Shown in pieces: positions 7,452 to 9,713 of a stretch of 64,000 bases of DNA. The stretch is from Rhizobium sp. C1. GTDB lineage: Bacteria > Pseudomonadota > Alphaproteobacteria > Rhizobiales > Rhizobiaceae. The notes beneath the pieces were generated by a model. It did no database searches. It worked only from the letters and a program-made list of their open reading frames with translations, and was not told the DNA's origin. The stretch covers positions 186,001-250,000 of the forward strand of contig NZ_JAJNCY010000001.1 of assembly GCF_021026335.1 (NCBI RefSeq). The letters are read 5' to 3'. Both the position numbers and the translations under genes were made by a program. Position 1 is the first letter of the stretch. Every line of letters begins with the position of its first letter.

Positions 7452-7573
7452 GTATGTCGGCTTTGAAAACGCAATCCTGGCTCAAGCTTCCGCGAGCCTA
7501 GTGAAGCTGCCTCTCAACGCTTGGGGACAGCGGCGAGTGGTGACTCCAACTGCAATCTCTCGAGGAGATGAGC

Positions 7574-8311
7574 ATGACTTCGATAATGTCATCACCAGGC
7601 GGCAGTGCCGTCTATTCCAGTCAATTGTCCCAATTGCTCGCAGCCAACCAGTCTGCGGACAATGATGATTCATCCAGCAGCAATAGCCCGGTTGCGGCCA
7701 GCCAGACGGTTCCGTCGCTGGCGAGCGTTCTGAGTACCGACGATACCACGGGGGTGGGCGCGCAGGCGGCCTCCACCATCAATTCGCTGATGATGCAGAT
7801 CCAGGCGATGCGGGCCGGAACGCCAGTCGATCCGTCTTCGACGACGGGTTCCACCGCTGACGGCACACAGCCCGTCGACCCGCAGCAGAGCGGCGCGGTT
7901 AATGGCCACCATCATCGCCATCATGGTGGAGGTGAGGCGGCAGCGGCTAAGGCCTTCTCCAACATCGACACCGACAAGAGCGGTTCCGTTTCGCTTTCCG
8001 AATTCGTTGCCGGTCGTCCGAAAACCATGTCGGAGGACGATGCGACCAAGATCTTTCAGTCGATCGATACGGGTGGGACGGGATCGATCGACGAGCAGCA
8101 ATTCGCAACGCATCTGAAGGCGGAGCATGAGAAGGCCGGCGGCGCGCATCATGCCAAGGGCGCTGAAAGTGGCGACGCCAAGCCGGATATGAAGACGCTG
8201 GCGCAGGATTTGATGACGCAGCTCAAGCAGGTCATCCAGACCTTCAACAACGGCTATGTCGATGGCGGGGATGTCGGCCAGCAGCCGGCGGATACGACCA
8301 CCGTGGGATAA
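7574..8311 (+). CDS. EF-hand domain protein
   Basis: A 245-aa, Ser/Thr/Ala-rich protein with a C-terminal EF-hand pair. Loop 1 is DTDKSGSVSLSE (132-143), a canonical Ca2+ loop. Loop 2 is DTGGTGSIDEQQ (165-176), which has Gly at the third position and a non-acidic residue at position 12, so it is probably weak or non-binding. A His-rich run (HHHRHHGG) lies just before the first loop. No signal peptide is evident. The start at 7574 puts GAGGAG 6 nt upstream; an in-frame ATG two codons earlier overlaps that site. The function is unknown. Confidence 0.75.
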   Translation: MTSIMSSPGGSAVYSSQLSQLLAANQSADNDDSSSSNSPVAASQTVPSLASVLSTDDTTGVGAQAASTINSLMMQIQAMRAGTPVDPSSTTGSTADGTQPVDPQQSGAVNGHHHRHHGGGEAAAAKAFSNIDTDKSGSVSLSEFVAGRPKTMSEDDATKIFQSIDTGGTGSIDEQQFATHLKAEHEKAGGAHHAKGAESGDAKPDMKTLAQDLMTQLKQVIQTFNNGYVDGGDVGQQPADTTTVG

Positions 8312-8389
8312 GGAGTGGCGAAGCCTGCCGAGAGCGTGGCGGTCACGCCGCGCTCGTCTTCACGTCAAAACCAAAGCATTTTTTCAAGC

Positions 8390-8423
8390 AAAAAAAATGG
8401 GCCGCAAGATTTCTCTCGGGCCC
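8390..8423 (-). terminator. Intrinsic terminator of the AbcR-type sRNA
   Basis: On the minus strand GGGCC (8423-8419) pairs with GGCCC (8403-8399) across 15 nt, followed by A and a run of eight T (8397-8390). Confidence 0.8.
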
Positions 8424-8508
8424 GTATAGTTGTGAAGGTAAAAACCTCCAGAGGGGAACAGTTGTTGCAGCGGCACTGGGAGGAAAACCGCTGAGCTCAA
8501 CAACTGAG
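8390..8508 (-). ncRNA. abcR: AbcR (alpha-r15 family) trans-acting small RNA
   Basis: The minus strand can form a three-hairpin RNA of about 119 nt. Hairpin 1 has an outer stem CAGTTGTTG (8506-8498) with CAACAACTG (8467-8459) and an inner stem CAGCGG/CCGCTG. Together these expose the loop TTTTCCTCCCAGTG, a strong anti-Shine-Dalgarno sequence. A short CCTC/GAGG hairpin follows, then an intrinsic terminator ending in eight T. This architecture and the position next to lsrB/vtlR match the Hfq-dependent AbcR RNAs of rhizobia, Agrobacterium and Brucella, which repress ABC-transporter substrate-binding protein mRNAs. The exact 5' end (8505-8509) is inferred from the promoter. Confidence 0.85.
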
Positions 8509-8512
8509 CGTG

Positions 8513-8541
8513 ATATGATGCCAAATTGTGCAAGTTTCAAG
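8513..8541 (-). promoter_or_regulatory. Sigma-70 type promoter of the AbcR-type sRNA
   Basis: On the minus strand CTTGAA (8541-8536) and TCATAT (8518-8513) are separated by 17 nt, close to the rhizobial CTTGAC-N17-CTATAT consensus. Transcription would start at about 8505-8509, exactly where the first stem of the sRNA begins. Confidence 0.65.
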
Positions 8542-8551
8542 GATTGGCCTT

Positions 8552-8577
8552 GCATGCCAGACATGCTTTTTGCGCAT
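8552..8577 (-). promoter_or_regulatory. Tandem dyads upstream of the sRNA promoter, candidate LsrB/VtlR site
   Basis: Two overlapping inverted repeats lie on the minus strand just upstream of the -35 box. They are ATGC-N7-GCAT (8577-8563) and GCATG-N5-CATGC (8566-8552), both 15 bp long and sharing GCAT. Position and size fit a LysR-type activator site. LsrB/VtlR is encoded next door and its orthologs control abcR genes in related bacteria. Binding here is inferred. Confidence 0.5.
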
Positions 8578-8780
8578 AGCTTTGGTGATTTTTCCAATAA
8601 GTTATTGTTTTTTATGATTTAAATATTTGACTCTGCGGTCAAAATTTCAAGGCTTCATCAATCAGAATTTTGAATCGTCCGACAGCGCTCACTAAATTTG
8701 ATTGATTTCTGCTTAAAATATAGCCGTCAACTATGTCTGCCTCGAATCTGTGCGGCGCAATTTTGACGTTGCACAGAGGA

Positions 8781-9683
8781 TCAAAAGTTCCAGTTACGCG
8801 CTTTGGCGACGATGAAATCGCGGAAGACTTTGAGCTTTGCTGCGTTCTTCATTTCATCGGGATAGCAGAAATAGGTGTCGAATGACGGCACGTCGGCATT
8901 GGTGACCAGCTGTACGAGGCCCGGATCGCGGCCAACGATATAGTCGGGCAACATGGCGATGCCGATGCCCTTGAGGGCTGCCTGCTTGATGGCGCTGAGC
9001 GAATTGATCTGCAGATGCGATGCCCGCGGGTTGTCGGACGAGCGACCGGCGATCTCCAGCCAGTTCACGTCCAGCAGGTAGCCGGGGGCAGGCTCGCCGA
9101 AGGTGATGATGCGGTGCTTGTCCAGATCGTCGAGCGACTGCGGCTCGCCGTGGCGGCTCAGATAGGCGGGGGCGGCATAGACATGCATATGCACGGTGAA
9201 GAGCTTGCGCTGGATGAGGTCCGACTGCTGCGGCTGGCGTAGACGAATGGCGCAGTCGGCGTGACGCATGTTCACGTCCAATTCCTCATTGTCAAGGATG
9301 AGCTGGACCTGCATGTCGGGATAGAGGTTCAGGAATTCCTGGATCTTGTCGGTCAGCCAGCCCTGGCCCAGACCGACGGTCGTCGTGACCTTCAGCTTGC
9401 CGCTCGGCTTCTCGGTGGTTTCGGTGAGCTGGATCTTCACCGTTTCCAGCTTCATCAGCACATCATGGGCGGTGCGATAGAGCAGTTCGCCCTGTTCGGT
9501 CAGGATCAGGCCGCGGGCATGGCGGTGGAAGAGCTTGCAGCCGACATCGCTTTCCAGCGCGCTGACCTGACGGCTGATCGCGGATTGCGACAGATGCAGG
9601 CTCTCGGCGGCATGCGTGAACGAGCCTGCCTCCGCAGCGGCATGAAAGATTCTCAGCTTGTCCCAGTCCAGCGGTCCGCCCAT
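8781..9683 (-). CDS. lsrB: LysR-type transcriptional regulator LsrB/VtlR
   Basis: A 300-aa LysR regulator with an N-terminal winged HTH (residues about 8-65, FHAAAEAGSFTHAAESLHLS then SAISRQVSALE) and a C-terminal effector-binding domain (about 95-290). Sequence and context (trxB 30 bp upstream, an AbcR-type sRNA downstream) match LsrB of Sinorhizobium and VtlR of Brucella/Agrobacterium. Those proteins control symbiosis or virulence, oxidative stress, LPS and abcR sRNAs. Cysteines that could sense redox state are present (VGCKLF, ADCAIR, YFCYPD). AAAGGGGAA precedes the ATG. It is probably cotranscribed with trxB. Confidence 0.85.
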   Translation of the reverse strand: MGGPLDWDKLRIFHAAAEAGSFTHAAESLHLSQSAISRQVSALESDVGCKLFHRHARGLILTEQGELLYRTAHDVLMKLETVKIQLTETTEKPSGKLKVTTTVGLGQGWLTDKIQEFLNLYPDMQVQLILDNEELDVNMRHADCAIRLRQPQQSDLIQRKLFTVHMHVYAAPAYLSRHGEPQSLDDLDKHRIITFGEPAPGYLLDVNWLEIAGRSSDNPRASHLQINSLSAIKQAALKGIGIAMLPDYIVGRDPGLVQLVTNADVPSFDTYFCYPDEMKNAAKLKVFRDFIVAKARNWNF

Positions 9684-9713
9684 GCCGTTCCCCTTTAGGT
9701 CATGAACTTTTAT

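Follow-up and report, generated by a model that had tools for sequence, protein, structure and literature searches.

The lsrB locus of Rhizobium sp. C1 raises the question of what a lone AbcR small RNA (sRNA) gene means. In the accessible published descriptions, Agrobacterium tumefaciens C58 carries AbcR1 and AbcR2 in tandem with an arsR-type gene on the far side, and in Sinorhizobium meliloti AbcR1 and the adjoining AbcR2 have an arsR-type gene next to them; by contrast, the locus in our window (the whole 64-kb stretch of DNA analysed) has one copy and an EF-hand gene. The first-pass annotation saw in this a hint that one copy had been lost, with a single RNA left to serve both target sets. 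The window carries a real, ordinary AbcR1-type sRNA that is alone at its locus but not in its genome.

The match to the Rfam family ar15 (RF02345) covers window positions 8505-8393 on the minus strand with 91.6 bits (E 1.2e-17; gathering cut-off 40 bits), over model positions 1-112 of 112. The only other Rfam match listed across the window is a tRNA. With a full-length match and an exact LsrB box, the annotation of an AbcR/alpha-r15 sRNA beside lsrB/vtlR is confirmed, and the interval proposed for it, 8390-8508, fits the ar15 match together with the T8 tract at 8397-8390. The features of the locus are as follows.

7568..8311, plus strand: EF-hand protein gene, 247 aa, on the far side of AbcR (Pfam EF-hand_6, EF-hand_7 and EF-hand_1)
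8390..8423, minus strand: Rho-independent terminator hairpin with T8 at 8397-8390 (sequence, fold)
8393..8505, minus strand: AbcR (ar15, RF02345) sRNA gene, LsrB-linked AbcR1-type copy, about 113-116 nt (Rfam, fold, tree)
8451..8458, minus strand: anti-Shine-Dalgarno seed aSD2, UUCCCCUC, in a single-stranded linker (Rfam match, seed comparison, fold)
8478..8485, minus strand: anti-Shine-Dalgarno seed aSD1, UUCCUCCC, in the first hairpin loop (Rfam match, seed comparison, fold)
8513..8518, minus strand: putative -10 element TCATAT after a 17-nt spacer, 4 of 6 positions as in the published CTATAT
8536..8541, minus strand: putative -35 element CTTGAA, 5 of 6 positions as in RpoD CTTGAC and identical to RpoH1 CTTGAA
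8554..8566, minus strand: LsrB/VtlR box GCATGTCTGGCAT, exact GCAT-N3-TG-N3-T at -61 to -49 (consensus match)
8781..9683, minus strand: lsrB/vtlR, LysR-type regulator, 300 aa (Pfam HTH_1 and LysR_substrate)
9684..9696, minus strand: lsrB ribosome-binding region AAAGGGGAACGGC, complementary to aSD2 (predicted duplex -18.8 kcal/mol, 10 contiguous pairs)

The predicted AbcR fold has an energy of -44.2 kcal/mol, whereas shuffled sequences average -26.8 (z -5.26) and none of 200 was as low. It consists of three hairpins, namely a two-step 5' stem, a short second hairpin and the terminator hairpin. Three hairpins, aSD1 and aSD2 and a Rho-independent terminator are likewise described for S. meliloti AbcR1 (SmelC412, alpha-r15) in the accessible text. 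The two-step stem exposing an anti-Shine-Dalgarno loop was predicted as first annotated, but the loop is smaller than the 14 nt originally given: its outermost U-G closes and 12 nt remain open, with the aSD1 seed unpaired. The motifs CCTCCC and TTCCCCTC are both present in the window AbcR, and both are unpaired in the predicted fold. The loop seed differs from that of S. meliloti, which reads CUCCUCCC. When the 32 base pairs of the window fold were mapped on 175 AbcR copies, 5050 of 5431 cells were canonical, and at least one double change was seen in 23 of the 32. Slid control structures were canonical in only 0.39-0.64, although the structure was derived from one row of the set and some excess over these controls is expected.

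The LsrB box matches the VtlR/LsrB consensus put forward for Brucella and Agrobacterium (PMC8844928; PMC7486931, accessible text). According to the accessible parts of these papers, S. meliloti abcR1 is LsrB-dependent through a box at the same distance, -61 to -49 (PMC8844928), and expression of A. tumefaciens AbcR1 is VtlR-dependent (PMC7486931). The published S. meliloti hexamers are CTTGAC-N17-CTATAT for RpoD and a -35 CTTGAA for RpoH1 (PMC8844928, accessible text). The -35 and -10 elements of the window AbcR were assigned because of their likeness to CTTGAC-N17-CTATAT; the pair CTTGAA-N17-TCATAT was absent from the output of a simple sigma-70 promoter scan. Since the -35 element equals the published RpoH1 hexamer, this promoter may also receive RpoH1 input. 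The same-genus copies L036-L038 have other hexamers at the -35 position.

AbcR lies downstream of lsrB, and trxB is on the other side of lsrB. The order trxB-lsrB-AbcR is like the trxB-vtlR-abcR order of A. tumefaciens C58 (PMC7486931, accessible text), and the lsrB neighbour and the position of the box are like those described for S. meliloti AbcR1. The window LsrB is 87-99% identical to the proteins of the best 80 of 588 lsrB loci; no NCBIfam equivalog reached its cut-off for LsrB among the 25 shown. The EF-hand gene had been correctly placed on the far side of AbcR. By tblastn, every genus genome but G003 (5 of 6) has it at the lsrB locus; it also lies somewhere in locus L094, and it was found in no other compared locus. 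The NCBIfam model XopAW matches the EF-hand protein weakly, at 39.3 bits against a cut-off of 120, which is so far under the cut-off that only the EF-hand part of the protein is supported.

A permissive Rfam scan of positions 8300-8800 gave no further ar15 match, although a relic too decayed for Rfam would escape such a scan. There is therefore one recognisable copy between lsrB and the EF-hand gene, as the first-pass annotation had noticed. The named lsrB loci used for comparison are the best 80 of 588 confirmed stretches, the nearest relatives of the query, and all 80 were searched with Rfam. Of these 80 loci, 24 have a single copy beside lsrB and 52 have two; three copies occur at 2 loci, four at 1, and 1 locus has none. 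Three of the 24 lone-copy loci (L036-L038) belong to the same genus; because the other 21 lie outside it, a lone AbcR beside lsrB is common and not peculiar to this genus. The locus without ar15 over the cut-off is that of Rhizobium sp. FKY42 (L071). Three AbcR genes stand in tandem beside lsrB in L091 and L094, and Ferirhizobium litorale has a tandem array of four (L085, 4012-4738).

Among these best 80 of 588 loci, the box at -61 differs with the position of the copy. It is exact in 20 of the 24 lone copies and has one mismatch in the other 4. For the first of two copies, it is exact in 39 of 52, with one mismatch in 11 and two in 2. For the second of two, it is exact in 23 of 52, has one mismatch in 4 and at least four mismatches in 25. 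These 25 box-poor second copies fit the published split, since S. meliloti AbcR2 is described as having an RpoH1-type promoter and no further conserved motif (PMC8844928, accessible text).

Within the genus, a window-type gene is present at the lsrB locus in all 6 genomes, and a second lsrB-linked copy was found in none of the 6. Among the loci listed, second copies occur at lsrB loci of Martelella, Shinella, Rhizobium and Neorhizobium. Because second copies are so widespread in other genera, loss is the simplest reading, and the second lsrB-linked gene was most likely lost in this genus; the tree on hand is unrooted.

In the genome as a whole (4.53 Mb, 22 contigs, 99.69% complete), three ar15 genes pass the cut-off, namely C6:71430-71538 (109.9 bits), C16:69774-69883 (107.1 bits) and the window copy. 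The next candidate in a search at E up to 10 scores 18.6 bits, far under the cut-off; at that E value, 12 of 14 unrelated control genomes also give ar15 matches, none of them over the cut-off. The sole match to the family ar35 (RF02346) in the genome is under its cut-off. The C16 copy has nadC on one side and a methyltransferase gene on the other, and the C6 copy lies on an 86-kb contig between a gene for a 1598-aa helicase/methylase-like protein and a ParB-like gene. Since both contigs carry repC, the two copies are very probably located on repABC replicons. The three copies share the exact LsrB box at -61 and both aSD motifs. The aSD2 seed is identical in the three copies and in S. meliloti, and the aSD1 seed of the C6 and C16 copies is that of S. 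meliloti, from which the window seed differs by one base (U for C). An extended box derived from the C6 and C16 copies, GCATNNCTGCATTGCACAA, has no exact match in the genome beyond these two. A third place, with two mismatches, lies at C20:68108-68126 and could mark another LsrB-controlled promoter.

Copy number varies among the six genus genomes, with 3 ar15 genes over the cut-off in the present genome (G000), 2 in G001, 2 in G002, 1 in G003, 2 in G004 and 4 in G005. G005 has two further ar15 matches under the cut-off. Its contig C20 (L125) carries two weak ar15-like copies (31 bits) near a good copy, lacking the exact LsrB box and the seeds CCTCCC and TTCCCCTC, and these are possibly decayed or divergent. 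Five of the six genomes (G000, G001, G002, G004 and G005) have the nadC-linked AbcR, on contigs with repC in 3 of the 5, and all five copies (L003 1501-1610 on C16 of G000, L010, L011, L012 and L017) have the exact LsrB box at -61. In G003, which is 99% complete, the gene at C7:964123-964236 is the only ar15 over the cut-off even at E up to 10. The alpha-r15/AbcR family is described as always multi-copy in the accessible text of PMC3712013, to which G003 is an apparent exception.

Copies similar to the two off-site genes are widespread on plasmids. In PLSDB, the nad-type copy with its promoter matches 382 of 72,556 records (327 over at least 80%; 273 predicted conjugative), and the C6 copy matches 394 of 72,556 records (320 over at least 80% of its length); these counts may include chromosome-like replicons, since PLSDB also includes records of 3.5 to 4.6 Mb. 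At many of the listed places, no annotated feature underlies the AbcR-like match. Fifteen places (L156-L170) were sampled as every fourth of 60 spread rows of the C6-copy matches, and each exceeds the ar15 cut-off, with scores from 80.5 to 119.9 bits. Ten of them have an exact LsrB box at -61 and another has it exact at -62; in 2 the box at -61 carries a single mismatch, and 2 lack it within one base of -61. One of the latter two, L165, shows by eye a one-mismatch box at -59. The plasmid copies were also considered as parts of one conserved backbone block with the helicase/methylase and ParB-like genes, and this was rejected: in tblastn with the C6 proteins, both genes were found in 3 of the 15 loci (L156, L157 and L168), the ParB-like gene alone in L158 and L164, and a single 53-residue helicase fragment in L160. 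As few loci share the C6 block, the setting of the plasmid copies varies.

The AbcR family and its plasmid copies are already published. Plasmid alpha-r15 members are named in a covariance-model legend in the accessible text of PMC3712013, with no difference in kind from our C6 copy, and S. meliloti is said to carry three AbcR homologues (PMC7143759, accessible text). In Brucella, one AbcR is VtlR-controlled and another lies on the second replicon (PMC7486931, accessible text), which resembles the arrangement here; that other-chromosome copy was reported as VtlR-independent, whereas both off-site copies here have the exact LsrB box. No statement on an LsrB box in plasmid AbcR members was found in the accessible literature, including that of PMC3712013, and its presence in most of the sampled plasmid copies is perhaps new.

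The counts bear directly on how the lone copy is to be read. The idea that the lineage lost one tandem copy and that the single remaining AbcR covers both target sets agrees with the one recognisable copy at the locus, with the missing second lsrB-linked gene throughout the genus, and with the single ar15 gene of the congener G003. As far as a loss beside lsrB is concerned, it is the most likely reading. The genome, in contrast, is not single-copy: the whole-genome ar15 search that had been suggested as a check gives two further full genes with higher scores and exact LsrB boxes. A second copy elsewhere was the result that the first-pass annotation itself had set as refuting copy loss, and the idea thus fails for this genome, though not for G003. 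With three ar15 genes in the genome, all bearing both aSD motifs, and with lone copies common elsewhere, one RNA for both target sets does not follow, and the proposal as a whole is highly improbable. Even more doubtful is a silent remnant, conserved by chance and making no RNA. The window copy does score lowest of the three, but its box, seeds, terminator and stems with double changes are all intact and the gene is kept at the lsrB locus across the genus, so we consider this reading extremely improbable.

Since copies do exist elsewhere in the genome, the missing tandem copy could instead have moved, the nad-linked or plasmid copy being the old AbcR2. This was addressed with an unrooted tree of 175 rows, each the RNA with 75 upstream bases, built by quick IQ-TREE with SH-aLRT. 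The rows are 138 copies from the named lsrB loci, 15 plasmid copies and 22 of the 39 matches of another ar15 scan (6 of the 39 are loci already named, and 11 were omitted as weak or without a fetched stretch). A branch with a starred support of 99 divides the tree into 26 rows (16 plasmid, 5 nad, 4 from contig C20 of G005 and 1 other) and 149 rows, the latter including all that are lsrB-linked. Several rows have long branches, and the starred values of this quick method merit less trust. The nad copies form one set with a starred 100, and the window copy falls in a starred 98 set of six same-genus lsrB-linked rows, two of which are one locus. Because the C6 and C16 copies are placed in a lineage with rhizobial plasmids, they probably did not arise as tandem partners that moved away. 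Promoter type argues likewise, as the off-site copies have a box at -61 and 25 of the 52 second-of-two copies among the loci listed have at least four mismatches there. It does not decide the matter alone, because the box in the other 27 is exact or one mismatch away. Together, these data make relocation to another replicon very unlikely.

We are therefore left with high confidence in the reading that the window gene is a chromosomal lsrB-linked AbcR1-type sRNA that would be activated by LsrB and repress in trans through two seeds, and one of three AbcR genes in the genome. Family membership, predicted structure, seeds, box, terminator, the hfq gene present in the genome and copy number were observed here; from published work on Sinorhizobium, Agrobacterium and Brucella we infer LsrB activation, Hfq dependence and the targets. 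By analogy, LsrB, the product of the adjacent gene, would bind the box at -61 and activate AbcR. AbcR, probably helped by Hfq, would act in trans through its two C/U-rich seeds, aSD1 in the loop and aSD2 in the linker, which would mask the ribosome-binding sites of mRNAs for transport and metabolism. Masking these sites would lower the translation of nutrient-uptake genes. The corresponding seeds of S. meliloti AbcR have been dissected (PMC8844928, accessible text). Seed pairing in 26 periplasmic binding-protein genes, compared with the 60 window ORFs and using automatically called start codons, showed no significant excess (one-sided p 0.17 for aSD1 and 0.077 for aSD2). Even the small difference seen is confounded, because generic Shine-Dalgarno sites are stronger in the transporter genes than in the window ORFs (p 0.003).

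When the 60 window ORFs of this target test are ranked by whichever seed pairs better, lsrB comes third. The strong predicted pairing of aSD2 with the lsrB ribosome-binding site suggests a possible feedback of AbcR on lsrB. Among the best 80 of 588 loci, with L054 dropped for lack of upstream sequence, lsrB pairs with aSD2 at -14 or lower in 52 of 79, versus 0 of 78 for trxB (Wilcoxon p 6e-14, which is overstated as the loci are related). Several points speak against a feedback. The window's own seed was used at all loci. Among the loci listed, the 27 of 79 that fall short of -14 include Neorhizobium, Pseudorhizobium and Martelella loci but also some of Rhizobium and Ciceribacter. For the window lsrB site, 44 of 1000 aSD2 shuffles pair equally well. 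The accessible literature on AbcR1, lsrB/VtlR and feedback, supplements aside, gave no statement of an AbcR-lsrB feedback loop, and the main text of PMC8844928 contains neither 'feedback' nor 'lsrB mRNA'. LsrB is described as co-activating AbcR1 and NfeR1, and the NfeR1 feedback acts on ntrBC (PMC10746234, accessible text). The strong predicted pairing between aSD2 and the lsrB ribosome-binding site is thus perhaps new.

A wider arrangement may be considered, in which a plasmid AbcR lineage with the LsrB box and the chromosomal gene form a dispersed system run by LsrB, and AbcR limits LsrB through aSD2. Each incoming rhizobial plasmid, mostly predicted conjugative, would then add a dose of LsrB-activated AbcR, and the pairing of aSD2 with the lsrB site would limit LsrB and buffer this plasmid-borne dose. 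We put this forward tentatively and regard it as rather unlikely.

The window gene is an apparent orthologue of a well-studied riboregulator, and little of importance lies in it alone. Since a lone lsrB-linked AbcR is common among the loci seen, the division of labour between AbcR1 and AbcR2 may not be general. If true, pairing of aSD2 at the ribosome-binding site of lsrB would complete a regulatory loop, and an LsrB box on the plasmid copies would give an acquired plasmid an input to its host's control of nutrient uptake.
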